Source: Cloeon dipterum (lineage: Eukaryota > Arthropoda > Insecta > Ephemeroptera > Baetidae). Taken from it: 64,000 nt of DNA. Below the pieces are notes generated by a model that was not told the origin of the DNA, did not search any database, and saw only the letters and a list, made by a program, of their open reading frames with translations. The position numbers and the translations under genes were made by a program. Positions 9,001-60,656 of this stretch are shown here, piece by piece. Position 1 is the first letter of the stretch; each line of letters starts with the position of its first letter. Location: positions 1,168,501 through 1,232,500 of the forward strand of contig NC_088787.1 in NCBI RefSeq assembly GCF_949628265.1. The letters are read 5' to 3'.

Positions 9001-9299
9001 ACACATTCTTGTCGAGAAAATCGTGTAAACTAGATCCCGTGATTTTAAATAGCGACCCTGAGAACCTGAATAATTTAATTAATAAAATTGCCGCATCGTA
9101 AATCGATTTTATTTACTACAGTTTGTTTAAATAATTATTTAAGACACATTCTGGTCGAGAAAATCATGTAAACTAGTTCCCGTGATTTTAAATTGTGACC
9201 CTGAGTACCTGAATAATTTAATTAATAAAATTGCCGCATCGTAAATCGATTTTATTTACTACAGTTTGTTTAAATAATTATTTAAGACACATTCTGGTC

Positions 9300-15200: not shown

Positions 15201-18200
15201 CCGTGATTTTAAATTGTGACCCTGAGTACCTGAAATACCGAATTAATTAAATTCCCGCATCGGAAATCAATTTTATTTACTTCAGTTTGATTAAATAATT
15301 ATTTTAGACACATTCCATTCGAGAAAATCGTGTAAACTAGCTCCCGTGATTTTTAAATTGCGACCCTGAGTACCTGAAATATTTAATTAATTGAATTCCC
15401 GCATCGGAAATCGATTTTATTTACTTCAGTTTTTTTAAATAATTATTTTAGACACGTTCCGGTTCAGAAAATCGTGTAAACTAGATCCCGTGATTTTAAA
15501 TTGCGACCCTGAGTACCTGAAATATTTAATTAATTGAATTCCCGCATCGGAAAACAATTTTATTTACTTCAGTTTGTTTAAATAATTATCTTAGACACAT
15601 TCTTGTCGAGAAACTCGTGTAAACTAGATCCCGTGATTTTTAATTGTGACCCTGAGTAAATGAAATATTTAATTAATTGAATTCCCGCATCGGAAATCGA
15701 TTTTATTTACTTCAGTTTGTTTAAATAATTATCTTAGACACATTCTTGTCGAGAAAATCGTGTAAACTAGATCCCGTGATTTTAAATAGCGACCCTGAGT
15801 ACCTGAATAATTTAATTAATTAAATTCCCGCATCGGAAAACGATTTTATTTACTTCAGTTTGTTTAAATAATTATTTTAGACACGTTCCGGTTGAGAAAA
15901 TCGTTTAAACTAGATCCCGTGATTTTTTAATTGCGACCTTGAGTACCTGAAATATCGAATTAATTAAATTCCCTCATCGGAAAACGATTTTATTTATTTC
16001 AGTTTGTTTAAAAAATTATCTTAGACACATTCCATTCGAGAAAATCGTTTAAACTAGCTCCCGTGATTTTTAATTGCGACCCTGAGTACCTGATATATCG
16101 AATTAATTAATTTCCCGCATCGGAAAACGATTTTATTTATTTCAGTTTGTTTAAATAATTATTTTAGACACATTCCATTCGAGAAAATCGTGTAAACTAG
16201 TTCCCGTGATTTTAAATTGCGACCCTGAGTACCTGAAATATCGAATTAATTAAATTCCCGCATCGGAAATCGATTTTATTTACTTCAGTTTGATTAAAAA
16301 ATTATTTTGGACACATCCTTGTCGAGAAAATCATGTAAACTAGTTCCCGTGATTTTAAATTGCGACCCTGAGTACCTGAAATATCGAATTAATTAAATTC
16401 CCTCATCGGAAAACGATTTTATTTATTTCAGTTTGTTTAAAAAATTATCTTAGACACATTCCATTCGAGTAAATCGTTTAAACTAGATCCCGTGATTTTT
16501 AATTGCGACCCTGAGTACCTGATATATCGAATTAATTAATTTCCCGCATCGGAAAACGATTTTATTTATTTCAGTTTGTTTAAAAAATTATCTTAGACAC
16601 ATTCCATTCGAGAAAATCGTTTAAACTAGCTCCCGTGATTTTTAAATTGCGACCCTGAGTACCTGAAATATTTAATTAATTGAATTCCCGCATCGGAAAA
16701 CGATTTTATTTACTTCAGTTTGTTTAAATAATTATTTAAGACACATTCTGGTCGAGAAAATCATGTAAACTAGTTCCCGTGATTTTTAATTGTGACCCTG
16801 AGTACCTGAAATACCGAATTAATTAAATTCCCGCATCGGAAATCAATTTTATTTACTTCAGTTTGATTAAATAATTATTTTAGACACATTCCATTCGAGA
16901 AAATCGTGTAAACTAGCTCCCGTGATTTTTAAATTGCGACCCTGAGTACCTGAAATATTTAATTAATTGAATTCCCGCATCGGAAATCGATTTTATTTAC
17001 TTCAGTTTTTTTAAATAATTATTTTAGACACGTTCCGGTTGAGAAAATCGTGTAAACTAGCTCCCGTGATTTTTAAATTGCGACCCTGAGTACCTGAAAT
17101 ATTTAATTAATTGAATTCCCGCATCGGAAATCGATTTTATTTACTTCAGTTTTTTTAAATAATTATTTTAGACACGTTCCGGTTGAGAAAATCATGTAAA
17201 CTAGTTCCCGTGATTTTAAATTGTGTCCCTGAGTACCTGAAATACCGAATTAATTAAATTCCCGCATCGGAAATCAATTTTATTTACTTCAGTTTTTTTA
17301 AATAATTATTTTAGACACGTTCCGGTTGAGAAAATCGTGTAAACTAGATCCCGTGATTTTAAATTGCGACCCTGAGTACCTGAAATATTTAATTAATTAA
17401 TTTCCCGCATCGGAAAACAATTTTATTTACTTCAGTTTGTTTAAATAATTATTTTAGACACGTTCCGGTTGAGAAAATCGTGTAAACTAGCTCCCGTGAT
17501 TTTTAAATTGCGACCCTGAGTACCTGAAATATTTAATTAATTGAATTCCCGCATCGGAAATCGATTTTATTTACTTCAGTTTTTTTAAATAATTATTTTA
17601 GACACGTTCCGGTTGAGAAAATCGTGTAAACTAGTTCCCGTGATTTTAAATTGTGACCCTGAGTACCTGAAATACCGAATTAATTAAATTCCCGCATCGG
17701 AAATCAATTTTATTTACTTCAGTTTGATTAAATAATTATTTTAGACACATTCCATTCGAGAAAATCGTGTAAACTAGCTCCCGTGATTTTTAAATTGCGA
17801 CCCTGAGTACCTGAAATATTTAATTAATTGAATTCCCGCATCGGAAATCGATTTTATTTACTTCAGTTTTTTTAAATAATTATTTTAGACACGTTCCGGT
17901 TGAGAAAATCGTGTAAACTAGATCCCGTGATTTTAAATTGCGACCCTGAGTACCTGAAATATTTAATTAATTGAATTCCCGCATCGGAAAACAATTTTAT
18001 TTACTTCAGTTTGTTTAAATAATTATCTTAGACACATTCTTGTCGAGAAAATCGTGTAAACTAGATCCCGTGATTTTAAATAGCGACCCTGAGTACCTGA
18101 ATAATTTAATTAATTAAATTCCCGCATCGGAAAACGATTTTATTTACTTCAGTTTGTTTAAATAATTATTTTAGACACGTTCCGGTTGAGAAAATCGTTT

Positions 18201-18800
18201 AAACTAGATCCCGTGATTTTTTAATTGCGACCTTGAGTACCTGAAATATCGAATTAATTAAATTCCCTCATCGGAAAACGATTTTATTTATTTCAGTTTG
18301 TTTAAAAAATTATCTTAGACACATTCCATTCGAGAAAATCGTTTAAACTAGCTCCCGTGATTTTTAATTGCGACCCTGAGTACCTGAAATATCGAATTAA
18401 TTAAATTCCCGCATCGGAAATCGATTTTATTTACTTCAGTTTGATTAAAAAATTATTTTGGACACATCCTTGTCGAGAAAATCATGTAAACTAGTTCCCG
18501 TGATTTTAAATTGCGACCCTGAGTACCTGAAATATCGAATTAATTAAATTCCCTCATCGGAAAACGATTTTATTTATTTCAGTTTGTTTAAAAAATTATC
18601 TTAGACACATTCCATTCGAGTAAATCGTTTAAACTAGATCCCGTGATTTTTAATTGCGACCCTGAGTACCTGATATATCGAATTAATTAATTTCCCGCAT
18701 CGGAAAACGATTTTATTTATTTCAGTTTGTTTAAAAAATTATCTTAGACACATTCCATTCGAGAAAATCGTTTAAACTAGCTCCCGTGATTTTTAATTGC
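9300..18800. repeat. Higher-order repeat organisation inside the satellite
   Basis: Rare variant positions recur at multiples of the monomer. The variant ATTAACTAAG is at 9,420, 11,571 and 13,865, which are spacings of 2,151 and 2,294 bp, or 15 and 16 monomers. The block starting at 14,194 reappears at 16,631 (offset 2,437 bp, 17 monomers) with the same subtype order. After a one-monomer indel the offset drops to 2,294 bp (15,915 versus 18,209). Further left, the variant GCGCCCCTGATTACC occurs at 3,459 and 7,617, an offset of 4,158 bp or 29 monomers. These show repeated unequal exchange of multi-monomer blocks. Confidence 0.85.
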
Positions 18801-19170
18801 GACCCTGAGTACCTGATATATCGAATTAATTAATTTCCCGCATCGGAAAACGATTTTATTTATTTCAGTTTGTTTAAATAATTATTTTAGACACATTCCA
18901 TTCGAGAAAATCGTGTAAACTAGTTCCCGTGATTTTAAATTGCGACCCTGAGTACCTGAAATATCGTATTAATTAAATTCCCGCATCGGAAATCGATTTT
19001 ATTTACTTCAGTTTGATTAAAAAATTATTTTGGACACATCCTTGTCGAGAAAATCATGTAAACTAGTTCCCGTGATTTTAAATTGCGACCCTGAGTACCT
19101 GAAATATCGAATTAATAAATTTCCCGCATCGGAAAACGATTTTATTTACTTCCGTTGGTTCAATTAATTA
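15900..19170. repeat. Diverged edge monomers of the satellite
   Basis: Toward the unique flank, monomers with private changes become common: CGTTTAAACTAG for CGTGTAAACTAG, TTTATTTCAG for TTTACTTCAG, CCCTCATCGG for CCCGCATCGG, and TTTTGGACACATCCTTG. The last monomer breaks off in the TTTACTTCCGTTGGTTC region around 19,150-19,170. Edge divergence is the usual result of fewer homogenising exchanges at the end of an array. Confidence 0.75.
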
Positions 19171-19420
19171 TCTCCATATCTGTATAAGAGGAAATAAATG
19201 TATGAGTGATTAAATCCCGATGACATAAGAACACAAAGTTTAGTTATTAAAAGTTATAGTAAAAATATTTTCATTACTGTGCAAATTTTATATTCTACAA
19301 TTTCGCGGTGCTTGCGTTCTTCATATTTTTGCTCTCTTTTAACAGAAGGCGTGTTTGGTGGTGGACGCGATTTTATGAGTCCGGATGTGCATGCGGTGTG
19401 CGCGCATGACGGCATCGATA
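19165..19420 (-). repeat. Dispersed repeat, inverted copy of 25,690-25,930
   Basis: The segment immediately beside the satellite matches, in reverse complement and with moderate divergence, the region just upstream of the lectin gene. Shared pieces include the block CTCTTATACAGA near a TTTATTTC run, the AATTTTATATTCTACAAT block, and the GATTTTATGAGTC block. No coding potential is seen. It may be a fragment of the lectin promoter region moved to the satellite edge, or both may be copies of one mobile sequence. Confidence 0.6.
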
Positions 19421-21488: not shown

Positions 21489-24400
21489 CTAGAGAAATCA
21501 ATAAGAATAATTGAAATGCTAAATTTGTGCAAAACCATTGTCATGTTGATCGGTCTCAGGGTAAGAAAAGACCCAGATTCATTCAGCGGAAGCAAGCCAT
21601 CCGCTTTTCAAAGAAAATTAAAAAAGAGAAATAATGTTAAAGAGAAAACTGTACGTGGAATGCAAGAAGACGAATCATATTTTAAAAAGTTGTCAAACGT
21701 CATGCACGACGAGTTAAGATCGTGGTCCGTGGGAATCACACTGCCTTGCTTTTACATCGATGGAAAAATAATTTTAAAGTTTTGTACGCAAAAATAGATT
21801 AAGAAAAATACTTCAATGTTGAAATCGTAAAATTTCCAGAAGTGGTCCACCGTTTTGGCCTGAAGGAAGCACACCAGGAAGTCGAACGCGAACGTTTCCT
21901 CGTTGATTACTTTAAAAAGAATTATTTAGTGTTCGCAGAGCAACTTTTCAATTATAATTTCTGTTTTATCATAATTTTGTTTAAACCACGAGAAATTAAA
22001 TGGTGCAATATTCTACCGTTTTTACCAATGAATTCAACAAGAACTATACATACTATTGATTTTTCTGCATTCGTAGAGTTTGTTCATCATTTCAGAGGCG
22101 AAATCAAAGTGGGCCGAGTATAATTCGTCCAGCATTTCATCAAACGCTGCATCTTCGAATATTCTGCTCTTCTCACCGGTAAGAGGTTTGAACGACAAGA
22201 TAAACTTAATTCGGTTCGTCTCCGCTTTGTTCATCGTATCGGCGTCACTTTTGAAAAAAAATGGACTTCTGATTCAACTGTTTGATTTTTATTTACATGG
22301 GATGCATCATTCTTGACAACAATGTCAGGTAAACGTGCAGGTTGATTTTGGTCGAGTTGTACACCTAGGTTGTATTGTTTAAACTATTAATTTATCTTAA
22401 TTAAACCTTTCCTCGACTTTACCAGTCCTATGTGCTCTGCAAGGCATTGAATCATTTTCTGCAAGAAGAACTAAATTATTACATCGAATCTGTTTATAAT
22501 TTTGGCTTCACTTTGGCTGCGTAACTGGTTCTGCTCAAATCGCCAGTGTTCCAAATTTTCTCGGCATCGCCTTTCATAGTTAACAAAAGAGAATTTGAAC
22601 AGCAAAGAAAGAAAAATAAGAAATACTTTCTTTTACTCTGAAATTCCTCCTGCAAGGTTGATAATGCATCTGCGATTTGAAGCCCACTCCCATTGGCGCC
22701 TTTTTACAAAATTAAATTTAATTCTAATCCCGTTATTCTGACAAAATACCTCGCAGATGATCTGTTTCTTTTCCGAGCAATCTGCCAGCGCCAGACTCGG
22801 CTCAACTTGATCCCCAAAATCGATGTAGACGCACGAGTTGCTCGCAAATCTCGGATCGTGGCCCTTTTTCCAAGTCAGGTCGTTTTTCAGGTAGTCGTTC
22901 AGGTAACCGGTGCACCACCGCAATTGTCCGCGGCAAGAATCGATATCCCGCCCAGCCGTCCAGACCTCCGTCCGAAAAGGCAGATCCCCTTTCTCATTCG
23001 GGTTACTATTTTCTGATTTTTTTATAATTTTAATATCTGAATAGAACTTTAAAAAAGCTAAACTGTAAGGATTGCCCAAGCAGTATTGCTTGTTTGGATT
23101 GTGGACTGAAAGGAGGTCCATTCCAAGGGAGCAGCACCGTTTGTAGGCCTCGTCCCAAGTGCCCTGATTTCAGATTTCGTTAAATCCGATGCTTTATTAT
23201 TGTGAATTCATTACATATTCATCATGCAGCTCGAGGATGTTGCTGTCGCAACATGAATGCCAATTCCCGAAACGCCAGGGTGCTTTTAACTGAATTAATT
23301 TTTCGTTTGAATGCTTTAATTCCCAACTCACCAAGCAAGACTCGAAAGGGTTGCTTCAGGAACAATTCATCCTACAGAAAAATATAAATAATTTTTGAGA
23401 TTATTTCTAGGATTCGCAATTGTACCTCCATGACGCAATCAGGTATGCCTGTGCACTCTGGCAGATCGCAGTTGTTTATTTTGTCATCCTACCAGACTTA
23501 TTTTAAATCGATTTAATGAGCATAGTTTTTGTAACCCTGATTTCGAAGGTCTGTTCCGTTCCTTCGCAGCCCAACAGCAGTTTGGATGCGCAGACGGTGG
23601 TTTTCACCACTAGAGCAGCGCTCTCCTCACTGGTTCCTTTTTCTCGGAACGAAACGGCCACGCAATTCCCCCCTTTTCGGATTCCATAAATTTTATTTTG
23701 GTTCAATTCTGATGCGTTGTGGAGGAAGTTTTCAAAGTGAAGAGGGCAACCTGCTCGAGTCATTGCCGACCAGTAAACCACATTCTGCACGGCTGCAAAA
23801 AGTGATTTTTAGACAGGGCTCCCTGACACTCCGAATCAGGTTATTATGGAGCCTAGTTCCTCAGCCAACATGCCGAAAATCGGTGGAAACGTTAAGCTTT
23901 TGGTCAGGAACGATAAAATACCGTTGCAAGAAAACGACGATTTATGTTTTCACTGATTTTCGTTTTAAAAACCGAAATCGACCATCTGTTAATGATTGGT
24001 CACGTCAAAAAGTCGCATTTGGGAACGATTTTTAAAGATATACAGTTATTTGCTTTGTCGAAATGGTCCCAAAGATAGTTCGTCACAGCTAAAGGTTTGA
24101 GGCCCAGACTGCAGCATGTCATCCAATTTTCCTTCCAGTTCACCTTCGAGAATATATTTTTAATTTGTTTGGGAAACCTGTATGAAAAATACCAATTTCT
24201 CTCCAAGGAAATAAAATCCTAATTTGGTTCGCTCCCATGTTCCGCGGATCTCATCATCTGCCTTTAAATTAGTAAATGTTTCTACTTAGAATTAAAGAAT
24301 AACCTTTTCTGAGGTACGTTTTCCCGCCAATTACTTGAAATAGGGACTCCTGCAAAAATTTGTTTCCTTATCCATTCAAATATAAATAATTTCCTTATAC

Positions 24401-31732: not shown

Positions 31733-34700
31733 TTAGCCAGGTGCCGCTCCTTCGAGTTCATCAAACCTTTTAAGTAAATGAGTTGGAAAAGATTCGTCAA
31801 TGTAGTCACGAGCACATTTCCCTTCACTGTCTCGTATGGTAACATCCACAATTTTAGACAAAAGTTTTTCGAAGAAATTCCTATTCCAGAGCTTTTTCTT
31901 GCAAGCAAGAATCAGCGGGGTTTCGTTCAAAGCATTTCTTGCGTTCAAATCAACGTCACCTTGCTCCACAAGCCAAACAAGAAACTCATCATCCCTGTCG
32001 TCGTCGTCTAATTTGATTGCCAGATGCAGAGTGGTATCTCCATTGTTCAAACGCTGTTTAACCAAATCACCATTCAATTCATGAATGAATAACGCCATGG
32101 TAGAGTTTGTTATTGCATGGTGAAATGCGTTCATCCCGTCGTTGTCTGTCAGAGCCAAATCTGCGCCTCTTTTGCACAACTCTTGCACCAAACAAGGTGA
32201 ATCTTCTAGCCTTTTAAATGAATACAATTTAACGGCGTAGTGCAGGGCCGTTCTTCCATTTTTATCTCTCGCGTTTATATCAACGGTTTTTGCGAGCAAA
32301 ATTTTAGCAATAATCAACTTTCTCTTCTTGAAAGCCAGCAGAAGCGGTGTACGTCCCTCGCTGTCTGTTACATTCAAGTCATTTTCGCATTGCTCCACAA
32401 GCCAAATAAGAACGTCTTCTTTCGAGTATCTGTCTAATTTGATTGCCAGATGTAGAGAGGTATCTCCATTTTTCAAACGCTGATTAACCAAATTACCATT
32501 TAATTTGTGAATGAATAGAGCCATGTGAAAGTTTTTTATCGCATGGTGAAATGCGTTCTTCCCTTCGTTGTCTGTCTGAGCCAAATCTGCGCCTCTTTTG
32601 AGCAACTCTAGCATTAAATCAAAAGCATTTGAATATCTTATCCCACAGTCTTCATCCAATTGAACGGCGTAGTGCAGGGCCGTTCTTCCATTTTTATCTC
32701 TTGCGTTTGTATCAACGGTTTTTTTCAGCAAAATTTTAGCAACAATCCATTCTCCCTCCTTGCAAGCCAGCATTAGCGGTGTCTCACCCTCGCTGTTTGT
32801 TACATTCAAGTCATTTTCACATTGCTCAACGAGCCAAAGAATTTTGTCAGTGTCAATGTCCCACGTTTTTAATACCAAATGGAGGGTTGTGTCTCCGTCT
32901 TTAAGACGCTGTCCCAACAACTCATTGTTTTTCTCGTGAAGAAATGAAAATACCTCCAAGTGATTTATTCCGTGGTGCAAGGCATTCTTTCCCTCGTTGT
33001 CTCTTAGAGTCAAATCCGCACCTTTCTCGTGCAAAAGCTTCACTACACACAAGTTTCCTTTTTTTGCGGCGTGGTGCAATGCGCTCATTCCCTCCTTGTC
33101 TGTTAAAGTCAAATCCGCACCTTTCTGAAGCAAAAGCCTCATGAAATCCAAGTTTCCTTTTTCTGCGGTGTAGTGCATTGCAGTTTTTCCCAGTATGTCC
33201 GAGGCATTGACCTCAACATTTCTGCTCAGCAGCAATTCGGTGACTCTCCAACACCCTTCTTCGCAAGCCAGTAAGAGTGGTGTATGGCCAGAAGAATTTT
33301 TCGCGTTTAAAACGGTGTCGTCTACTTGTTCTATAATCCACAGAGCGATCTCTTCTGTTACAGCACCATACCAACTCAATGCCAGATGTGGAGTTGTGTC
33401 TCCATCTTTTGTACGCTGCTTCAAAAGATCTCCGTTCTTCTCATTGAGGAATCGTAACATTTCTTCGTTTTTGATAGCGTAGTGGATTGCATTCTTTCCT
33501 TCCAGGTCCGTTAGAGTTAAATCTGCATTGTTTTCAAGCAACAACTTTACCAAATCAACATTTCCTCTTTTTGCAGCAAGGTGCAGTGCTGTCCTTCCTT
33601 TACTGTCCCATCTGTTTAATATCTCCTTCAGTTTAGATCCAACACAACCCTCGCCAATATCTTGATTTTGGACTTCCTCGGTCGTGCAGTCTAAAATCTT
33701 TTTCACAAATTGCAAATGTCCGCTTTCAGCAGCAATATGCAACGCAGTCATCCCTTTTTCGTCAACCACATTGAAGTCTCCACCCAGTTCTATCCAAGTT
33801 TGCAGAGCCTCTAAATCACCCCTTTCAGCGGCTGCATGAAGGCACGTTCGCCCACAATAGTTTTTTACTTCCAGGTCGATATCTTTTGTCATCAAATAGT
33901 CAACAAATCTCAGTCCTTTTTTAACTGCAATACGCAACGCAGTGCAGCCATTGTTGTCCTTTGCTTTTACGTCAACTCCAATCTCTTCGACCAGTAAACG
34001 CGCTTCCTCAAAAAACCAATAGCTGGATTTCGGAAGAAGAATATGCAGCCCTGTTTGACCACTTCCAGTTTTCTCCTTGGCCAGCTGACTATCAGTGCTG
34101 TGCAACAATCGAATCACGTCTTCTTTAAGGTAACGCCAATTGCTGCAAGCAAAATGAAAAGCATTCCATCCATTTTCGTCTACAGCTCGAATATTAGCAC
34201 CAGAATGGATCAACTCTTGGACACGTTCAAGATATCCATGTTCCGCAGCGCAGTGAAGAGCAGTTTTTCCTCTTTCGTCTGTCATGTTAATGTCACTTTT
34301 CTGCAGAATTAAGAAATGGTCCATGCATAATTTGTCCTTCCGGGACCAATCTCTTGGATCTCCAATTGGTCGTAAGGTGTTCACGTCAACCCCTTCTTCG
34401 TCAATAAGCATTTGACATATTTCCAAACATTTACTTTTAGCTGAAAATCGTAGAAGACTTTCATCATCACCATATTCCGCGTTTTTCAAGTTTGGGCACT
34501 TTTCTATTATAAGTTTCGCGATTTCCTTGTGCCCTTCTTTAATAGCAGAATGTAAAGCACCCAAATGAGATTTTACTTTATTGATTTCGAAAGTTTCTTT
34601 GTTGCATTGCAGTCCACTGATGTTTTCCTCTAAAAAGAATTTGACCAGGTCTAGATCATTTTCTTCTACAGCCATCATCAAAGGATCCCAACTTTCACCA

Positions 34701-37700
34701 TCTTCATCTATGGCTAATTTTGCGCCATGCTTAAGCAAAACTTCTACGCATTTTATAGCTCCATTGTGAATAGCCAAATATAGGGTGCTACCTTCATCAC
34801 CTTGAAAATCTTTGTCGACACCATTTTGCAGCAGCAGATGAAGAATTTCGCCGTTATTCTTTTTTGCTGCAACCGCTCCAGCTTCTATTATAGATTTTCT
34901 AGAGTGGATCATCTCTGGCAATGTAGGAAATTTTGTTTTTAGCTTCTCAAAGAACAGACAAGCGTTCGACTTGGCTACTGACTTCAACAGGTGAAGTAAA
35001 ATTATAAGCAACTCATCATCACTTTGGATCAAGTCCGTGTCGAGCAGCATGATTGCAATTTCTTCCGCACCTTTGATTGCTTTGACCAAAAGAGTCCTAT
35101 CCCTTGCAACAGTAATACGGTTTCCCTCTTGGTTTTCACTGAAGGTGATAATTGGGTAAACCATTTTGAAAATATTTATGCAGCCATCGGAAGCAATCAA
35201 ACCCAAAAAAATATCTGGTTTCAACTTCATGACTCTTAGAATTGATGCTCTGCGCTTTTCGATTTTTTCCACGTCATTCAAAACTGTGGAATAGAACAGA
35301 TTGACAAACTTTCTGCACCACGAAAACGACTCCCCTAAAAATAAATCTGCAATATTTTCAGTGCTGCTTTGGATGTCCCAATCGCCACTATTCTCGATTT
35401 CACGTAGGAAATGTTGGGCTGCGAGAAATTCGGCGAAAGTCTGATGAATGAAAATAACATGGTTGTTTTGAAACGAGGCAATGCCATAGTAATTGTTTTT
35501 TTCTAGGCCGTCTTTCGCGTAATCAGGAAGTTCAACTCCTCTGATGTGGTTGCTTGCCAACTTTTGAAGATCTAATATAGCAAAGGCTAATATTTCTCCA
35601 AAATCGGCTTCATTGTTCTTGTCAACTGCTTTCCTGATCAGAGTGTCTTTCACTTTGTGTTGCACGACCTTGTCGTAGATTTGGTACAAGTTTCCTTCGG
35701 CCCCGTACTTGGCAACCAAAGAAAGGTGCAAAGGATTTCTCAAGATGTCCTTTGATGTCATTTTTTTTAAGAAATCTTCCCAATCGTCTCGACTCTTGCC
35801 CGTCTCCAGCTGAAACAACTCCATTTGCTGCTCTTCATTCAAGGGTTCAATCTCTACTAATACAGCTTTTGATGTTTGCTTTTGGATAGCTTCTGCTGCG
35901 TTAGGTCTCGTTCCGATCCATACGGATATCAGCTCCTCTTCTAGAGCTTCGATAACTCTCAATGTTTTTTCTTGGTTATCAGGACGGGTAATTTCATCGA
36001 ACCCATCAAGAATCACAACACATTGCTTTTTTTCTATGCTTTTTATGATTTCCTCTTTCGAATTCTTAGTGGCTTTCACGAGAAATTCAATCTCAGTCAC
36101 ATTCCTGTCTAGAGAACTGAACGGAACTCTCGGGAGTGAAATGCGTAAAATTTTGAATTGTGGATTTAGTTTCCCGAGTTGAAAAGCCATCTCCCTGAGG
36201 ATTGTCGTCTTTCCTGTTCCTGCGACTGAACTCAAGAGCCAAATTTGTTTTTCTTTTGCTGATTTCTTCACCAAGCTGTCGAAGCTGACGTGATATTCTT
36301 TATTTTTTTGAGAATTTGTCACTGAAAAGCTAAGTTGAACAAAAGAACTGGGCCAGTCAGGAAAATTGAGAGGATACTGGAGCGTCGAGTTAAGAAAATC
36401 CCGATTTTCCTTTGATTCGGAAATGAGCAGACTTGCGAGAATTTCTTGCAGACTCTTCTCCGTTTTCACCTTTTGCCCATTGAAGATTTCGATCAGCTTT
36501 TGAAGATCATCTATATAGACGAAAAAATTTTAAAAATGAATAATTACGAGAAAGTAAATAATACCCTTGTTGTGCAAAACTAGGACTAACCATCCACTGT
36601 GGTTTGTTGCGGATATTCTCATGTAAGGCTGTATAAATCCGGACTATATAGAACAAAAGGGTGTGTGATACTTTAATATGATTACTTTTTTAATTTGGCT
36701 AGACATTTTGGAAATTAATAAAATACAAAGTCAATTACCGCGTCAGCAGAAGAAGTCGTTTCCTGGTTCACAAAGAATAATAATTTTGGTTTTCCAATCC
36801 ACTGGTCGTTTTTTGGCCCGATAAATTCAAGCAGTATTTGAGATACTACTGCAGTTTCTTGACCGTCCACCTGCACGCAAACCTCATTTGTGTCCTCGTT
36901 TTCAGTCACAAGGCCAAAAAAAATCAGAAAAATGCAGCCAATGTCGAAGTCTCGCCACGAGGCTGAAATATGCATTGCATGATTACAAGCATTTAAATAA
37001 AATTAAGTCGTACAACCTTTATTAATGGACGTCCACGGCGTTCCACTCAGCTTCAGTTTGCTGGTCTCGAAATCTAGGTTTTGGGACAGCGCGGTTTGCA
37101 CTTCATTCAACTGCTTGTTTCCCTCTGTGACAGCGGAAAAGAGAAGCGCAAGGCGGCGTCGCATATTTTCCCCTGTGCTTGATTTCCAAGAGTAAAACTC
37201 GCGTTTGATGCTCATTGCGTCAGATTTCGAGGAATCCCGAGGACTCCTGAAATATAAAATTTTATCATAACATATTTGTCAACACCTATGTGGATACTCT
37301 ATGTAAATTTTTAAATTCAAGGGAAATCCTGATGAAAACTCACTTTGAGATGACAAAACTTCTGTCCTGGGAAAACATCTTGAATTCTGGAGTCTGTCCA
37401 GCGGTTCCTTTGACCGAATCTTTGTGAATTTCATTTTGAATATATGTCAGGACATTTATGAGACTCTCGTCCTTCTCAAGAGAATTTAGAACCTTGCAAG
37501 TAAGGTGGATGAAAGTTGTTCCTGTTGCCGGGTCTCGATTGGCCAAGGTCGCTGCGAAAATAAATGCAAAAATTAGAGAACTAAATTTGTATTGACATCA
37601 AGAGTCTCACTTTCGACCGTTGAGAAGAACACAACCGTGTTTCTCGTCAGAGGGCTGTAGGTGATTCGACAAGAGTTTGCGTTATTGAAATTATCATCAA

Positions 37701-38718
37701 TTGCGGGAAAAATTGTGTCTTTCAGCTCCCCTCTACATGACTGTAAATAATCATTTTAATATCAATCTTGGTTATTAGAGCAGAGACTCACTCCGAAGTT
37801 TATAAATTTCAGACATTCGTCGAAACCAGTCAGCTTTTTCAGAGACTCGAACACGTCTGTTGTTGTGAAGGAAACAAATAACTCGCTCAGGTTTAGTTGG
37901 CCGTCACGCCGCTCATCCACTATCTTGCGAACATCGTCCTTGACGTAGTCTGTCAAGATTACTCCATCTCTGTCGCCGTGAGAAAGAATGTAAAGCACAA
38001 ACACTGATGGAACGTCTGCGTATGATGAATACTATTATAAAATAAAATTTATCAAATAAATTCATCGTTTTTACCTGAACAGCCAAATTCCTGTAACAGT
38101 TTTTCTCGATCGGAGAGAAGTTGGAGCATCTTCCCCTTTTCTGGAGACAACAAACTGCGGAAGTTGCATTTCCGGTTCTTCCTGAAGGTTTCATCCAGAT
38201 TCTTTATGTCCGTGTCATCACCGTCCCGGAAAAGGTCTTTTATCTCCAGCTAGCAAATATTGGGTTCTTTTAATATGTAAGTTATAGGACATTCCACTGA
38301 TGTAAAAGTGAAACTTTCAAGGACTCAAGCGGTGTGGCTATGTTACTGACGGCACAAGAAAATGTGACGCTTTTGAAACTATAGGGAATGTACCGATTAA
38401 AATAAAGTTCGTTTCATATTCTATGAAAGTTCCGAGAACATTAGCTGGCTTTCTGATGAATTTTTGCTGCATATACGACAGCACATATGGAACATTTGGA
38501 CACGGTACTTGATGTCAAAATATTTTACCTGAGTTGATTCTTCTAGCTTGGTCTTGGCGTCCTTAAAGTTGTAGTGGACGACGAGCACGCAAACACTGAG
38601 AATTGTGGTTTTAAATCAAATTTATCGTATTATTTCCATGATGTTTATACTTGTCTGCGTTTTGTATAGTTTGATCTTTCGACACGAAACACCCTAACTT
38701 GGCTGGTCCCTTGGGCAT
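31733..38718 (-). CDS. Caspase-pseudocaspase-NACHT-ankyrin protein, gene A (2,059 aa predicted)
   Basis: Ten exons, all GT-AG and all in phase: 38,651-38,718; 38,529-38,595; 38,075-38,249; 37,792-38,015; 37,611-37,740; 37,344-37,551; 37,017-37,243; 36,739-36,962; 36,565-36,643; 31,733-36,510. They total 6,180 nt including stop. Residues ~20-290 form a caspase fold with His116 (ILSHGD) and Cys180 (SCRG). Residues ~290-467 are a second caspase-like fold without catalytic residues. NACHT Walker A is at ~565-570 and Walker B at ~633-640. Ankyrin repeats fill ~1,010-2,040. The big last exon begins with no ATG (its first in-frame start-like codon is GTG), which supports joining to the upstream exons. 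The protein is probably a cytosolic sensor in which ankyrin ligand binding drives NACHT oligomerisation and caspase activation; that mechanism is inferred from NLR biology. Confidence 0.88.
31780..34910 (-). other. Gene A: ankyrin repeat array with four-fold super-repeat
   Basis: More than 20 ankyrin repeats, seen as G-TALH-AA--G----V--LL--GAD patterns. The C-terminal part is a tandem of larger modules containing GDTTLHLAIK, then WLVEQ...DLN, NSEGETPLLLAC, NARDKNGRTALHYAV and GKNAFHHAI. The DNA encoding the module start (GTATCTCC/GTGTCTCC then ACGCTG) is at 32,034, 32,460, 32,889 and 33,396, spacings of 426, 429 and 507 bp. The array ends in ARDYIDESFPTHLL just before the stop. Confidence 0.88.
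35480..36250 (-). other. Gene A: NACHT NTPase domain
   Basis: The protein reads WLLSSVAGTGKTTILREMAF (P-loop), QCVVILDGFDEI (Walker B with the extra acidic position typical of NACHT), then SVWIGTRPNAAEAI (sensor, in place of the TSRP motif). Downstream come NPLHLSLVAKYG and FIHQTFAEFLAAQHFLRE, the winged-helix style motif common in NACHT proteins. All nucleotide-binding residues are present, so it should bind ATP. Confidence 0.9.
36565..37243 (-). other. Gene A: second, degenerate caspase-like domain
   Basis: Exons 7-9 read like a caspase: TGENMRRRLALLFSAVTEGN (helix 1), SWRDFDIGCIFLIFFG (where LSHG is expected), NDQWIGKPKLLFFVNQE (where KPKLFFIQACRG is expected), then the small-subunit-like SGFIQPYMRISATNHSGWLV. 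Both catalytic residues are missing, so it is a pseudocaspase if the fold assignment is right. It could hold the active domain as an intramolecular heterodimer partner, as c-FLIP does for caspase-8. Confidence 0.65.
37062..37350. other. 289-bp tract identical to 58,910-59,198
   Basis: From TGGTCTCGAAATCTAGG to CACTTTGAGA both copies are identical, covering most of exon 7, the whole exon 6-7 intron and the exon 6 border. High identity continues with a few differences to about 37,690. Other introns of the pair, for example intron 2, are strongly diverged, so this is likely a recent gene-conversion tract. Confidence 0.8.
37344..38718 (-). other. Gene A: catalytically intact caspase domain
   Basis: Exons 1-6. 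The large-subunit core strand VLVVHYNFKDAK is followed by helix residues, then VFVLYILSHGDRDG with the catalytic His. The strand LKFINFGSCRGELKD carries the catalytic Cys, in GSCRG rather than the usual QACRG. The small subunit contains LANRDPATGTTFIHLTCKVL, where caspases have SWRNP..GSWFIQ. The Arg of the Asp-binding pocket is kept. The Cys codon is the second codon of exon 5, so the intron splits the active-site motif between Gly and Ser. There is no prodomain, so activation must rely on the fused NACHT. Confidence 0.85.
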
Positions 38719-53790: not shown

Positions 53791-56700
53791 TTATTTGCTG
53801 GGTGACGCTTCTTCGAGTTCATCAAACCTTTCAAGTAAATGAGATGGAAAAGATTCGTCAATGTAGTCACGAGCAGATTTGCCCTCAATGTCTCTTATGT
53901 TCAAATCCACATTTTTTGACAAAAGTATTTCAAAAAATTTCTTGTCCCAGCATCTCTCCTTGCAAGCCAGAATCAACGGGGTTTCGTTCAAAGCATTTGT
54001 CACGTTGAAATCAACGTCGCCTTGCTCCACAAGCCAAACAAGAAACTCATCATCCCTGTCGTCCTCGTCTAATTTGATTGCGAGATGCAGAGAGGTATCT
54101 CCATTGTTCAAACGCTGCTTAACCAAATCGCCATTCAACTCATGAATGAATAAAGCCATCTGAAAGTTTGTTATCGCATGGTGAAATGCGTTCATCCCGT
54201 CGTTGTCTGTAAAAGACAAGTCTGCGCCTCTTTTGCACAACTCTTGCACCAAATCATGATATGAATTAACGGCGTAGTGCAGGGCTGTTCTTCCGTTTTT
54301 ATCTTTCACATGTATATCGACGCGTTTATCAAGCAATATTTTAGAAACATTCCACCTTCTATTCATGCAAGCCAGCATTAGCGGTGTCTCACCCTCGCTG
54401 TTTGTTACATTCAAGTCAATTTCGCATTGCTCAACGAGCCAACGAATTATGTCAGTGTCAATGTCCCACGTTTTTAATGCAAAATGGAGGGCTGTGTCTC
54501 CGTTTTGCAAACGCTGTCCCAACAACTCATTGTTTTTCTCGTGAAGAAATAATACTACCTCAAAGTTTTCGAGTGCGTGGTGCAATGCGTTCATTCCCTG
54601 ATTGTCTGTTAGAGTCAAATCCACACCTTTCTCGTGCAAAAGCTTCACTAAAGACAAGTTTCCTTTTTCTGCGGCGTGGTGCAAGGCATTCATTCCCTTG
54701 TTGTCTCTTAGTGTCAAATCCACACCTTTCTCGTGCAAAAGCTTCAGTAAATACAAGTTTACATATTCTGCGGCGTAGTGCATTGCAGTTTTTCCATTCG
54801 CGTCCGAGACATTGACCTCAACATTTCTGCTCAGCAGCAATTCGGCGGCCCTGCACCACCCATTTCTGCAAGCCAGTAAGAGTGGTGTTTCGCCAGAATC
54901 ATTTTTTGCGTTTAAAACGTCGTCGTCTACTTGTCCAATAATCCACAGAGCGATCTCTTCCGTTACACCACCATTCCTTTTCAATGCCAGATGTAGAGTT
55001 GTGTCTCCATATTTTGTACGCTGCTTCACAAGATCTCCGTTCTTCTCATTGAGGAATCGTAACATTCTTTCATTTTCGATAGCGTAGTGGATTGCATTCT
55101 TTCCTTTCATATCCATTTGAGTTAAATCTGCGTTGTTTTTTAGCAACCATTCCACCAAATCAACATTTCCTGACTCAGCAGCAAGGTGCAGTGGTGTCCT
55201 TCCTACCTTGTCCGCGTGAGTTAAATCAGCGTTATTTTCAAGCAACAATTTAACCAAATCAACATTTCCTGATTCAGCAGCAAGTTGCAGTGCTGTCCTT
55301 CCTTCATTATCACATCTGTTTAATCTCTCTTTCAGTTTAGATCCAACACAACCCTCGCCAAGATCTTGATTTTGGACTTCCTCGGTCGCGCAGACTAAAA
55401 ACTTTTTCACAAATTGCAAATGTCCGTTTTCAGCAGCAATATGCAACGCAGTCATCCCTTTTTCATCAACCACATTGAAGTCTCCACCCAGTTCTATCCA
55501 AGTTTGCAGAGCATCCAAATCACCCCTTTCAGCGGCAAAATGAAGGCATGTTCGCCCCCGTTTGGTTTTTACTTCCAGGTCGATATCTTTTTCCATCAAA
55601 TAGTCAACGGAATCCTTTGCTTCGTTAACTGCAATACGCAACGCAGTGCAGCCATTGTTGTCCTTTGCTTTTACGTCAACTCCAATCTCTTCGACCAGAA
55701 AACGTGTTACTTTAACCGAGCAATAGCTGAATTTCAGATGAATGTGCAGCCCTGTTTGACCTCTTCCAGTTTTCTCTTTGGCCAGCTGACTATCAGTGCT
55801 GTGCAACTTTTGAATAATTTGTACTGTAATGTCATGTATCTCATTCATTTCATCATCATCATCAAAGTAACGCACACTGCTGCAAGCAAAATGAAAAGCA
55901 TTCCATCCATTTTCGTCTACAGCTTGAATATTAGCGCCAGCATTGACCAACTCTTGGACACGTTCAAGATATCCACGTTCCGCAGCGCAATGAAGAGCAG
56001 TTTTTCCTCTCTCGTCTGTCATGTTAATGTCACTCTTCTGCAGAAGTAAGAAATAGTCCATGCATATATTGTCGTCTTCGACATCCGAGGACCCATCGCT
56101 TGTGTCCTCGTCATCCGAGGACCCATCGCTTGTGTCCTCGTCATCCGAGGACCCATCGCTTGTGTCCTCGTCATTCCTGGACCAATCTCTTGGATCTCCA
56201 CTTCGTCGTAAGGTGTTCACGTCAACCCCTCCTTCGTCAATAAGCCATTGACACATTTCATAATTTCCATTTTTAGCCGAAAATTGTAGAAGACTTTCAT
56301 CATCACCATTTTCCACGTTTTTCAAACCTGGACTCTTTTCTATAAGAAATTTTGCTATTTCTATGAACCCCTCTTGAATAGCTAAATGTAAAACATTCAA
56401 CTCTGATTCTACTTCATTGATTTCGAAAGTTTCTTTGTTGCGTTGCAGTCCACTGATGTTTTCCTCCACTAACAATTTGACCAGGTCTAGATCATTTTCT
56501 TCTACAGCCATCATCAAAGGGTCCCAACTTTCACCATCTTCATCTATGGCCAATTTCGCGCCATGCTTAAGCAAAACTTCTACGCATTTTATATCTCCAT
56601 TCCAAATAGCCAAATATAGGGCGCTACCTTCATCACCTTGAAAATCTTTGTCGACACCATTTTGCAGCAGCAGATGAAGAATTTCGCAGTGATTCTTTCT

Positions 56701-59700
56701 TGCTGCCAACACTCCGGCTGCTATTATAGATCTTCTAGAGTGGATCATCTCTGGCAATCTTGGAAATTTTGTTTCCAGTTTTTCAAAGAAGAGACATGCG
56801 TTTGATTCAGCTACTAAATTCAACAGATGAGGTAAAATTATTAGCAACTCATCATCACTGTTGATTAAGTCCGTGTCGAGTAGCATGATTGCAATTTCTT
56901 CCGCACCTTTGATTGCTTTGAACAAAAGAGTTCTATCCTTTGCAACAGTAATACGGTCTCCCACTTGGTTCTCACTGAAGGTGATAATTGGGTAAACCAT
57001 TTTGAAAATATTTATGCAGCCATCGGAAGCAATCAAACCCAAAAAATTATCTGGATCCAACTTCATGACTCTTAGAATTGATGCTCTGCGCTTTTCGATT
57101 TTTTCCGCGTCATTCAAAACTGTGGAATAGAAAAGATCGACAAACTTTCTGCACCACGAAAACGATTCCCCTAAAAATAAATCTGCAATATTTTCAGTGC
57201 TGCTTTGGATGTCGCAATCGCCACTATTCTCGATTTCACGTAGGAAATGTTGGGCTGCGAGAAATTCGGCGAAAGTCTGATGAATGAAAAAACCATGGTT
57301 GTTTTGAAACGAGGCAATGCCATAGTAATTGTTTTTTTCTAGGTCGTCTTTCACGTAATCAGGAAGTTCAACTCCTCTGAAGTGGTTGCTTGCCAACTTT
57401 TGAAGATCTAATATAGCAATGGCTAATATTTCTCCAAAATCGGCTTCTTTGTTCTTGTCAACTGCTTTCCTGATCAGAGTGTCTTTCACTTTGTGCCGTA
57501 CAACCTTGTCGTAGATTTGGTACAAGTTTCCTTTGGCCCCGTACTTGGCAACCAAAGAAAGGTGCAAAGGATTTCTCAAGATGTCCTTTGATGTCATTTT
57601 TTTTAAGAAATCTTCCCAATCGTCTCGACTCTTGCCCGTCTCCAGCTGAAACAACTCCATTTGCTGCTTTTTTTTCAAGGGATCAATCTTTACTATAACA
57701 GCTTTTGATATCCTATTTTTGATTGCTTCTGCTGCGTTAGGTCTCGTTCCGATCCATACGGATATCTGTTTCTTTTCTAGAGCTTCGATCACTTTCAGTG
57801 TTTTTTCTTGGTTATCAGGACGGATGATTTCATCGAACCCATCAAGTATCACAACACATTGCTTGTGTTCTATGCTTTTTATGATTTCCTCTTTCGAATT
57901 CTGAGTGGCTTTCACGAGAAATTCAATCTCAGTCACATTCCTGTCTAGAGAACTGAACGGAACTCTCGGGAGAGAAACGCGTAAAATTTGGAATTGTGGA
58001 TTTAGTTTCCCGAGTTGAAAAGCCATTTCCCTGAGAACTGTCGTCTTTCCTGTTCCTGCGACTGAACTCAAGAGCCAAATTTGTTTTTCTTTTGCTGATT
58101 TGTTCACCAAGCTGTCGAAACTGACGTCATATTCTTTGTTTTTTTGAGAATTTGTCACTGAAAAGCTAAGTTGAACAAAAGAACTGGGCCAGTCAGGAAA
58201 ATTGAGAGGATACTGGAGCGTCGAGTTAAGAAAATCCCGATTTTCCTTTGATTCGGAAATAAGCAGATTTCCGAGATGTTCTTGCAGACTCTTCTCCGTT
58301 TTCACCTTTTGCCCATTGAAGATTTCGATCAGCTTTTGAAGATCATCTATATAGACGAAAAAATTTTAAAAATGAATAATTTTGAGAAAGTAAATAATAC
58401 CCTTGTTGTGCAAAACTAGGACTAACCATCCACTGTGGTTTGTTGCTGATATTCTCATGTAAGGCTGTATAAATCCGGACTATATAGTAGAAGAAGACGG
58501 TGTGAGATATACTTTTTATAATAAATTTTTTAATTTGGTTAGACATTTTGGAAGTATTTAGAAATTAATAAAATACAAAGTTAATTACCGCGTCAGCAGA
58601 AGAACTCGTTTCCTGGTTCAAAAGGAATAATATTTTGGGTTTTCCAATCCATTGGTCGTTTTTTGGCCCGATAAACTCGCGCAGTATTTCAGATACCGCA
58701 GTTTCTCGACCGTCCACTTGTACGCAAACCTCATTCGTTTCCAAGTTTTTAGTCACAAGGCCAAAAAATATCAGAAAAATGCAGCCAATGTCGAAGTCTC
58801 GCCACGAGGCTGAAATATGCATTGCATGATTACAAAGCATTCAAATAAAATTAGGTCGTACAACCTTCATTAATGGACGTCCATGCTTTTCCACTCAGCT
58901 TCAGTTTAATGGTCTCGAAATCTAGGTTTTGGGACAGCGCGGTTTGCACTTCATTCAACTGCTTGTTTCCCTCTGTGACAGCGGAAAAGAGAAGCGCAAG
59001 GCGGCGTCGCATATTTTCCCCTGTGCTTGATTTCCAAGAGTAAAACTCGCGTTTGATGCTCATTGCGTCAGATTTCGAGGAATCCCGAGGACTCCTGAAA
59101 TATAAAATTTTATCATAACATATTTGTCAACACCTATGTGGATACTCTATGTAAATTTTTAAATTCAAGGGAAATCCTGATGAAAACTCACTTTGAGAAT
59201 ACAAAACTTCTGTCCTGGGAAAACATCTTCACCTCTGGAGTCTGTCCAGCGGTCCCTTTGACCGAATCTTTGTGAATTTCATTTTGAATATATGTCAGGA
59301 CATTTATGAGACTCTCGTCCTTCTCAAGAGAATTTAGAACCTTGCAAGTAAGGTGGATGAAAGTTGTTCCTGTTGCCGGGTCTCGATTGGCCAAGGTCGC
59401 TGCGAAAATAAATGCAAAAATTAGAGATTTCAATTTGTATTGACATCAAGAGTCTCACTTTCGACCGTTGAGAAGAACACAACCGTGTTTCTCGTCAGAG
59501 GGCTGTAGGTGATTCGACAAGAGTTTGCGTTATTGAAATTATCAACTATTGCGGGAAAAATTGTGTCCTTCAGCTCCCCTCTACATGACTATGGATTAAT
59601 TATTTTAATACACCATCTTCGTTATATTAGCAGAGACTCACTCCGAAGTTTATTAATTTAAGACATTCGTCAAACCCAGTCAGATTTTTCAGAGACTCGA

Positions 59701-60656
59701 ACACGTCTGTTGTTGTGAAGGAAACAAATAACTCGCTCAGGTGTAGATGGCCGTCACGCCGCTCATCCACTATCTTGCGAACATCGTCCTTGACGTAATC
59801 TGTCAATATTAATCCATCTCTGTCACCGTGAGACAGAATGTAAAGCACAAACACTGATGGAACGTCTGTGTAGAATGAATGCTATCATAAAATAAAATTT
59901 ATCAAATAAATTCATCGTTTTTACCTGAACAGCCAAATTCCTGTAACAGTTTTTCTCGATCGGAGAGAAATTGGAGCAACTTCCCTTTTTCCGGCGACAA
60001 AATACTGCGGAAGTTGCAGTTCCGGTTCTTTCCAAAGGTTTCATCCAGATTCTTTACATCCGTGTCATCACCGTCCCGGATAAGGTCTTTTTTTATCTCC
60101 AGCTAGCAAATTATTACGTTTTTTATAATGTGTTATAGGACATTTCACTGATGTTTGTGAAAAATTCAAGGATTCAAGCGGTATCTTTCTGACGGCACAA
60201 GAAAATGTGACGCTTTTGAAACATTTAGTTTATTTTATATTGTATGAATGTTCCGAGAACATTAGTTGGCATTCTGATTCATAAATGACACACATGAGGA
60301 ACATTTGCCATCTACCGGTTTCAATTGTCCAATTGGGTACTACGCGCCCTCAAGTGTTACTTGAAACGAACATAGATGTAACATTTTAACCTGACATTAA
60401 ATGAACACAACAATATTTCTACAGAAAAGTAATAAACTTTCTTTTGATAACAAAATATTTTACCTGAGTTAATTCTTGTAGCTGAGTCTTGGCGTCCTTA
60501 AAGTCGTAGTGCACGACGAGCACACAAACACTGAGAATTGAGGTTTTAAATCAATTTTATCGGATATTTTTCACTGTTATTATTATACTTGTCTGCGTCT
60601 TGTGTAGTTTGGTCTTTCGACACGAAATACCCAAACCTGGCTCGCCCCGCAGACAT
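53791..60656 (-). CDS. Caspase-pseudocaspase-NACHT-ankyrin protein, gene B (1,985 aa predicted)
   Basis: Ten exons with the same phases as gene A: 60,589-60,656; 60,464-60,530; 59,925-60,102; 59,642-59,865; 59,459-59,588; 59,192-59,399; 58,865-59,091; 58,589-58,809; 58,401-58,479; 53,791-58,346. Every length change against gene A is a multiple of three (+3 in exon 3, -3 in exon 8), so the frame is under constraint and the gene is probably functional. The caspase His and Cys, the NACHT P-loop GTGKTT and ILDGFDE are all retained. It has one fewer ankyrin super-repeat than A, one extra 33-residue ankyrin repeat, and an acidic DEDTSDGSSD triplication. A minus-strand AATAAA signal lies at 53,408-53,413. 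Upstream similarity with A includes the region just before the ATG, so both may share promoter elements. Confidence 0.88.
53840..56740 (-). other. Gene B: ankyrin array with three-fold super-repeat
   Basis: Module-start signatures are at 54,095, 54,494 and 55,001 (spacings 399 and 507 bp), against four in gene A. An added repeat (GRTPLHLAAESGNVDLVEWL) sits near 55,190, beside the nearly identical GRTALQLAAESGNVDLVKLL, and looks like a recent single-repeat duplication. Confidence 0.85.
56081..56175 (-). repeat. 30-bp coding minisatellite in gene B
   Basis: About three tandem 30-bp units encode DEDTSDGSSD repeats within an acidic loop between ankyrin repeats. Gene A has only a single RDWSRKDKLC-type junction at the matching place. 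The unit length is divisible by three, so the frame is safe from copy-number change. Confidence 0.92.
57320..58085 (-). other. Gene B: NACHT NTPase domain
   Basis: It has SVAGTGKTTVLREMAF, QCVVILDGFDEIIRP and VWIGTRPNAAEAI, with the same downstream FIHQTFAEFLAAQHFLRE motif as A. No key residue is changed. Confidence 0.9.
58401..59091 (-). other. Gene B: second, degenerate caspase-like domain
   Basis: Exons 7-9 keep the caspase-like frame with FGLVTKN in place of the His loop and LLNQETS in place of the Cys loop. The same losses are seen in gene A, so catalytic loss predates the duplication. One codon is missing compared with gene A in the AVVSQ/AVSE region. Confidence 0.65.
59192..60656 (-). 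other. Gene B: catalytically intact caspase domain
   Basis: Exons 1-6 give VCVLVVHYDFKDAKTQ, VFVLYILSHGDRDG, LKLINFG|SCRGELKD and LANRDPATGTTFIHLTCKVL. Catalytic His and Cys and the small-subunit Arg are present, as in gene A. The first exon (MSAGRARFGYFVSKD) differs more from A (MPKGPAKLGCFVSKD) than the core does. Confidence 0.85.

Follow-up and report, generated by a model that had tools for sequence, protein, structure and literature searches.

A candidate one-chain caspase-NACHT-ankyrin receptor family in the genome of Cloeon dipterum

A 64,000-nucleotide stretch of the Cloeon dipterum genome (Ephemeroptera, Baetidae; RefSeq assembly GCF_949628265.1, 190 Mb), hereafter the window, contains a gene, here called gene A, whose exons can be spliced into a single frame encoding an active-type caspase domain (domain 1), a second, catalytically dead caspase domain (domain 2), a NACHT NTPase and a long ankyrin-repeat array. 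The window corresponds to C2:1168501-1232500, where C1 to C5 denote contigs of the assembly and C2 is NC_088787.1; all positions below are window positions. The five largest contigs measure 33-43 Mb. We favor, with moderate confidence, the interpretation that the product of gene A is a one-chain NLR-like receptor, which would activate its own caspase by oligomerizing. At the sequence level, this interpretation is based on the fused frame, the His/Cys dyad that is intact in domain 1 and lost in domain 2, the complete P-loop and Walker B motifs, and a large family of paralogues that keeps the same domain order.

Gene A runs on the minus strand from 38718 to 31733. An earlier reading of the same DNA, made from the letters alone (hereafter the sequence-only reading), had proposed a continuous ten-exon frame, and this was reproduced: ten exons joined by nine GT-AG introns (phases 2, 0, 1, 0, 1, 2, 1, 0 and 1) yield a frame of 2060 residues plus a stop codon, with His116, Cys180 and a P-loop at residue 566 as landmarks. 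The spliced coding sequence measures 6183 nt when the longer of two candidate first exons is used; the shorter one (20 nt, giving 2044 residues) was rejected, the longer being the one conserved among paralogues. A splice acceptor just 5' of the ATG suggests that gene A has an additional, probably non-coding exon upstream, and no extra coding exon upstream of exon 1 was found at any consistent place. In three paralogues (L021, L024 and L025) the exon 1 ATG is absent and the frame, inspected by eye, is apparently open as far as the splice acceptor; translation of some family members may therefore start in an exon further upstream.

By profile match, domain 1 falls in the caspase family (MEROPS C14A). 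Pfam Peptidase_C14 matched residues 1-793 of gene A with 48.0 bits (E = 1.6e-12; cut-off 21.4) over profile positions 19-225 of 233, a match that spans both the p20 and the p10 part. The spliced domain on its own reached 50 bits (E = 4e-13), the unspliced caspase exons alone falling below the gathering cut-off, and 12 of 12 aligned relatives matched the same family at E up to 0.1. A domain 1 profile retrieved 164 sequences from the PDB, with caspase-3 on top (E = 1.1e-13) and the best 60 of the 164 all caspases, while comparison with a profile of the stand-alone caspases of the same genome gave 97.1% (E = 7e-11). Residue conservation was counted over 33 sequences, namely gene A, a second copy in the window (copy B), 20 further loci fetched from C2 and 11 loci on C1, C3, C4 and C5. 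Domain 1 keeps both His-Gly and Cys-Arg-Gly in all 33. The roles of the S1 pocket and of other residues are those that we take over from human caspases.

The sequence-only reading had described one caspase. The active-type His/Cys caspase is present as claimed, but a second caspase domain had been overlooked, which takes up the 200 residues following domain 1 and is encoded by exons 7 to 9 and the start of exon 10. Its profile retrieved 132 sequences from the PDB with E values of up to 1 (best E = 7.7e-9), the best 60 of the 132 again all being caspases, and comparison with the stand-alone caspases of the genome using hhalign gave 95.1% (E = 3e-8). Domain 2 varies at the catalytic-site positions that domain 1 keeps invariant: there is no His at the His site and, in 33 of 33 sequences, no Cys in the Cys block, a site that lies just beyond the profile match and was placed by ungapped extension. 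In one copy (L018) a His stands just past the His site.

The NACHT NTPase noted before in the gene A frame was borne out, as Pfam NACHT scored 39.6 bits on residues 1-793 (cut-off 26.7) and both Walker A and Walker B are present. Profile searches had been proposed by the sequence-only reading, and on the spliced gene both Peptidase_C14 and NACHT exceeded their gathering cut-offs, with Ank matching in the exon 10 frame. Searched against the PDB as one sequence, the NACHT part had no match at E 0.01. Among the PADLOC and NCBIfam models, antiphage NACHT and ankyrin models matched this part, every NCBIfam match being far under its cut-off. In the exon 10 frame, Pfam delineated 13 Ank_2 and 19 Ank_4 stretches, and a consensus scan found 18 clear repeats (chance windows numbered 21 over 200 shuffles). 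More than 20 repeats had been claimed previously; an array of about 1050 residues makes such a number plausible, but the scan supports 18 clear repeats and gives no exact count. Because a 432-bp block occurs about twice in tandem at 31956-32838 (82% matches), the array probably grows by internal duplication. No leucine-rich repeat (LRR) family was among the 16 Pfam families listed, ankyrins occurring instead, and no death-fold N-terminus (CARD, PYD, death or DED) was found at E up to 0.01 in a Pfam scan of residues 1-793. Since neither LRRs nor a death-fold N-terminus were found, the predicted product of gene A is NLR-like rather than an NLR in the strict sense.

Whether caspase and NACHT belong to one gene is critical to this proposal. 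Exons 9 and 10 are separated by only 54 nt, and the minus-strand frame 36529-31733, which holds NACHT and the ankyrin repeats, has no Met ahead of the P-loop and therefore cannot begin there as a normal NACHT protein; for these two reasons, two separate genes are judged from the sequence to be very unlikely. Intron 9 is modeled as a phase-1 GT-AG intron of 51-87 nt in all 22 C2 copies (the 20 fetched loci, A and B), although gene A served as the guide for these splice models, which are hence biased towards its structure. In the same models, three introns, one each at the His strand, at the Cys loop and where p10 begins, have identical place and phase in 22 of 22 copies; those at model residues 274 and 351 agree exactly in 20 of 22, and the one at 426 in 15 of 22. 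Exons 2 and 3 are separated by an intron in four of 20 C2 copies (A, B, L012 and L023), the other 16 reading through in frame. Genome-wide, at least 84 of 101 NACHT matches are preceded on the same strand, at a distance of up to 6 kb, by a domain 1 match; among the domain 1 matches listed, none lies near a NACHT match on the opposite strand and three lie downstream. Conversely, NACHT follows downstream of 146 of 150 domain 1 matches (the best 150 of 222). Moreover, when pairwise distances were computed separately for the two caspase domains and the NACHT part, the three matrices correlated at 0.92-0.93, a level reached by 0 of 999 permutations; the modules have been inherited together. The fusion of caspase, NACHT and ankyrins claimed by the sequence-only reading passed every sequence test applied, the caspase-NACHT order being inherited as a unit across paralogues. 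Retention of intron 9 would run into an in-frame stop, so that a caspase-only isoform is possible. Nevertheless, given the short gap, the lack of a start codon and the genome-wide pairing on one strand, we regard it as highly improbable that the caspase and the NACHT-ankyrin part are two adjacent genes or alternative transcripts rather than one protein.

The same arrangement recurs throughout the genome. Thirty-two other NACHT matches were found on C2, from which 20 loci were picked by NACHT match and mostly by nearness; all 20 carry caspase, pseudocaspase and NACHT collinearly on the same strand. On C1, C3, C4 and C5, 11 more loci were compared, nine of which had been picked for a Pfam caspase match and two had not; all 11 have the three modules in this order. 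Copy B is 91.6% identical to gene A over the core and has the same intron series and a last-exon frame of 1524 codons, while core identity drops to 43% relative to gene A among the C2 copies and to 31-34% relative to the best of four queries at the loci off C2. Most NACHT matches are clustered on C2 and C4. The ratio of nonsynonymous to synonymous substitution rates (dN/dS) of domain 1 ranges from 0.18 to 0.57 and is below 1 in 11 of 11 pairs, which are not independent; over 11 pairs, likewise not independent, domain 2 gives 0.18-0.73. A short stretch before NACHT exceeds 1 in one pair. For the ankyrin array, divided into thirds and compared over four pairs with gene A, the values are 0.39-0.77 for the first, 0.76-1.12 for the middle and 0.30-0.69 for the last third. 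This pattern fits constrained effector modules combined with a changing recognition surface in the ankyrin repeats.

The origin of the caspase part was traced through its introns. Three stand-alone caspases, the proteins of which we joined from their exons, served for comparison. Two of them, located on C4 and C5, share three intron positions with domain 1: a phase-1 intron ahead of the His strand, a phase-0 intron at the Gln/Ala-Cys junction and a phase-1 intron ahead of the p10 Arg. The third shares two of the three positions. The phase-1 intron preceding the His exon of domain 1 (exon 4) is at the same place in all three, and the phase-0 intron immediately before the Cys loop (exon 5) is common to two of the three. 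Domain 2 likewise has a phase-1 intron ahead of its third strand. The stand-alone caspases L051-L053 are clustered (C4 at 1.037 Mb; C5 at 27.148 and 27.158 Mb), and one of them has QACQG in place of QACRG. Judged by sequence and gene structure, the caspase domain of gene A descends from ordinary animal caspases, and a bacterial origin is unlikely because the introns are shared with the animal's own caspases. Moreover, the NACHT part matched no phage records at E 1e-5, nor any bacterial or archaeal genome in one scan with a reach limited to close relatives. Horizontal acquisition from bacteria or phages was rejected on these two grounds, the matching introns and the lack of NACHT matches.

We propose the following working model for the product of gene A. 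The ankyrin array would sense a ligand and, until then, keep the protein closed in an ADP state. Upon ligand binding, the NACHT part would swap its nucleotide and oligomerize, which would bring the N-terminal caspase domains together and activate the caspase by proximity. Since caspases act as dimers, the most likely partner of the active domain, either within or between chains, is the pseudocaspase, which would complete or restrain the active site. The active caspase could then cleave downstream caspases or other targets, so that the infected cell is killed or alarmed. A separate adaptor or recruited caspase would not be needed, and a six-frame, exon-by-exon search of the genome gave a single CARD match, which suggests that classical CARD adaptors are scarce. 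A role in immunity is inferred here, as it was in the sequence-only reading.

Several observations weigh against this model. In domain 1, the full QACxG pentapeptide was not found, the Gln being replaced by Gly in 32 of 33 sequences and by Ala in one, and the second S1-pocket-like Arg, present in 25 of 33, is absent from the other eight; substrate specificity, and even activity, are uncertain for these two reasons. Together with the adjacent domain 2, which already lacks catalytic residues, these substitutions would suit a caspase part that is non-proteolytic and serves as a mere scaffold for oligomerization or signaling. We consider such a scaffold unlikely, as His-Gly and Cys-Arg-Gly are retained in every sequence despite the low core identities given above, whereas domain 2 varies at these positions. 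For domain 2 itself, profile matches are confined to the p20 part, and Peptidase_C14 was reached (E up to 1) by only three of 13 sequences, gene A's not among them. Domains 1 and 2 gave no match when their profiles were compared, on which ground a recent duplication as the source of the pair was rejected. A further adverse point is that no gasdermin was found in the genome, in a search for which control genomes were equally silent.

Additional counter-evidence concerns the integrity of the family. In-frame stops interrupt six of the 33 core splice models, odd short introns in a few of the models may hide frameshifts, and four of 22 last-exon frames are short. Seventeen of the 101 NACHT matches have no upstream caspase among the matches listed; two of these (L032 and L034) do carry a caspase in spliced models, both with in-frame stops. 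In addition, dN/dS of the NACHT part spans 0.26-0.95 over 11 pairs, reaching 0.95 in one, and ankyrin values near 1 may reflect relaxed constraint. Stops and shortened frames would be expected if the loci were mostly decaying pseudogenes left by an old expansion. However, genes A and B are open where modeled, 27 of 33 cores are free of stops and domain 1 is under constraint in every pair compared, and wholesale decay therefore seems to us hardly credible.

Even with a functional protein, the signal sensed may be of another kind. The derivation of domain 1 from ordinary animal caspases and a weak NB-ARC match overlapping the NACHT region (20.0 bits, under the cut-off of 23.5) would also accord with an apoptosome-like switch for developmental or stress-induced cell death instead of a pathogen sensor. 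With at least 84 loci carrying the pair, NACHT clusters on C2 and C4 and raised dN/dS in the ankyrin repeats, the family is unlike a single-copy developmental switch, and we hold this alternative to be improbable. The receptor model with a self-activated caspase is the one we retain.

Table 1. Features of gene A and copy B in the window (limits of the ankyrin array are approximate).
Feature	Position	Strand	Description
Gene A exon 1	38651..38718	-	ATG at 38718, donor GTATAA; aligned and open in most of 20 copies
Gene A exon 2	38529..38595	-	VCVLVVHYNF, first strand of caspase domain 1; motif in 20/22 C2 copies including A and B
Gene A exon 3	38075..38249	-	First S1-pocket-like Arg, FRDGDDTD; Arg in 31/33, Lys in one, gap in one
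Gene A exon 4	37792..38015	-	Catalytic His116, codon 37980-37978 (LSHG); His and Gly in 33/33
Gene A exon 5	37611..37740	-	Catalytic Cys180, codon 37737-37735 (FGSCRG); Cys-Arg-Gly in 33/33
Gene A exon 6	37344..37551	-	p10-like part of caspase domain 1
Gene A exon 7	37017..37246	-	Linker and start of pseudocaspase domain 2
Gene A exon 8	36739..36962	-	Pseudocaspase core; FFG at His site, FVNQE at Cys site
Gene A exon 9	36565..36643	-	ATNHSGWLVLVLH; p10-like by eye only, no profile match over exon 9
Gene A exon 10	31733..36510	-	End of domain 2, NACHT, helical region, ankyrin array, stop; within a 1598-codon stop-to-stop frame
NACHT NTPase	35813..36226	-	P-loop GTGKT at 36220-36206, LDGFDE Walker B; Pfam NACHT above cut-off
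Ankyrin-repeat array	31800..34899	-	18 clear repeats; Pfam Ank
Copy B	53791..60532	-	Exon 2 to end of last-exon frame; caspase-pseudocaspase-NACHT-ankyrin; exon 1 just upstream

Elsewhere in the window, positions 1-19171 consist of satellite DNA in which a 143-bp unit (287-bp dimer) is repeated about 134 times with 91% matches, and a C-type lectin-like exon lies at 22633-23169 on the minus strand (Pfam Lectin_C 17.1 bits, under the cut-off of 22.6). Genome matches further include 94 RR cuticle proteins and five members of 7tm_6, the insect odorant receptor family, and one genome frame reads, by its signature, as the C-terminus of Orco. The cuticle proteins bear out the arthropod assignment of the sequence-only reading, and the odorant receptors and the Orco-like frame narrow it to an insect. 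A springtail host was rejected, as these insect receptors are present and no NRPS condensation domain was found. Mitochondrial COX1 gave a single fragment below threshold.

To our knowledge, insects are commonly described as having no NLR inflammasomes. The sequence-only reading had said that insects are generally described as lacking NACHT NLRs, which needs correcting in that NACHT proteins are not absent from arthropods in general: the consulted part of a 2016 study names homologues across the phylum, including Daphnia, Bombyx and Culex (PMC5062602). NACHT is given as absent in Drosophila in an excerpt of another study (PMC2575513), and the term does not occur in the main text of the paper on the 180-Mb Cloeon genome (PMC7250882). 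The shrimp protein LvNLRC is, as excerpted, an arthropod NACHT protein like gene A, but with LRRs and an N-terminus of unknown function (PMC12370184). A metazoan survey, according to the section consulted, describes arthropod NLRs as lacking an N-terminal effector domain and excludes arthropods for that reason (PMC11508797).

Among the matches listed from the open-licence PMC literature, no caspase-NACHT-ankyrin gene was found in an arthropod, nor, among those listed from the open-licence literature, an active caspase joined to a pseudocaspase, NACHT and ankyrins in any animal. We tentatively suggest that the family represents insect one-polypeptide inflammasome-like devices, each combining a sensor, an NTPase switch and an active caspase with a dead caspase as built-in partner, the two caspases forming a single-chain pair. 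If true, animal innate immunity would include a distinct architecture that needs no adaptor and was built from the animal's own caspase genes, not by microbial acquisition. An insect family of this size that carries its own caspase would also overturn, for at least one lineage, the view that insects have no NLR inflammasome or that their NLRs have no effector. As a one-gene system, it would render sensing, oligomerization and caspase activation directly testable.

Animal NLRs and inflammasomes, such as NLRC4, NLRP1 and NLRP3 with caspase-1, resemble gene A, as far as the consulted descriptions go, in a central NACHT, a C-terminal repeat sensor and a caspase output, and in some animals NLRs form expanded families, as does gene A. 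In known NLRs, however, the N-terminus is a CARD, PYD, BIR or death-fold domain and the caspase is a separate protein that has to be recruited, whereas gene A would carry the caspase in its own chain and has ankyrin repeats in place of LRRs. With respect to the pseudocaspase, the closest parallel is c-FLIP-L, a dead caspase homologue that pairs with active caspase-8. There, active and dead caspase are two proteins, while in gene A both stand in tandem in one chain with NACHT, and the role of dead caspase partners would become an experimentally simple question. The inactive caspase domain of c-FLIP is mentioned in PMC8195603.

Direct fusion of a receptor part to a caspase is known in animals from the LRR-caspase and TNFR-caspase hybrids of amphioxus, although no caspase-NACHT combination is among the hybrids named in the accessible portion of that study (PMC2575513). 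A figure legend on NLR annotation in a sponge paper includes a caspase (CASc) domain (PMC12909245, excerpt), so that another animal may also have a caspase-NACHT combination. As a general idea, caspase-NACHT fusion is already known from bacteria. Two cyanobacterial metacaspase-NACHT-WD40 proteins join a C14 protease, NACHT and repeats in one protein (PMC2853523), but these are bacterial metacaspases with WD40 repeats and, in the text excerpted, no tandem pseudocaspase, whereas gene A has the introns and the sequence of an animal caspase. In fungi, NLRs use a CHAT caspase-like or S8 protease as N-terminal output, and other such proteases are joined to ANK, TPR or WD40 (PMC12881547, as excerpted). 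Within the caspase-like fold, CHAT forms a branch of its own, and it works with gasdermins, in contrast to the present genome, where the gasdermin search, like its control, was silent. The family described here would thus show that the fusion of protease and sensor has arisen in animals as well, and not in bacteria and fungi alone.

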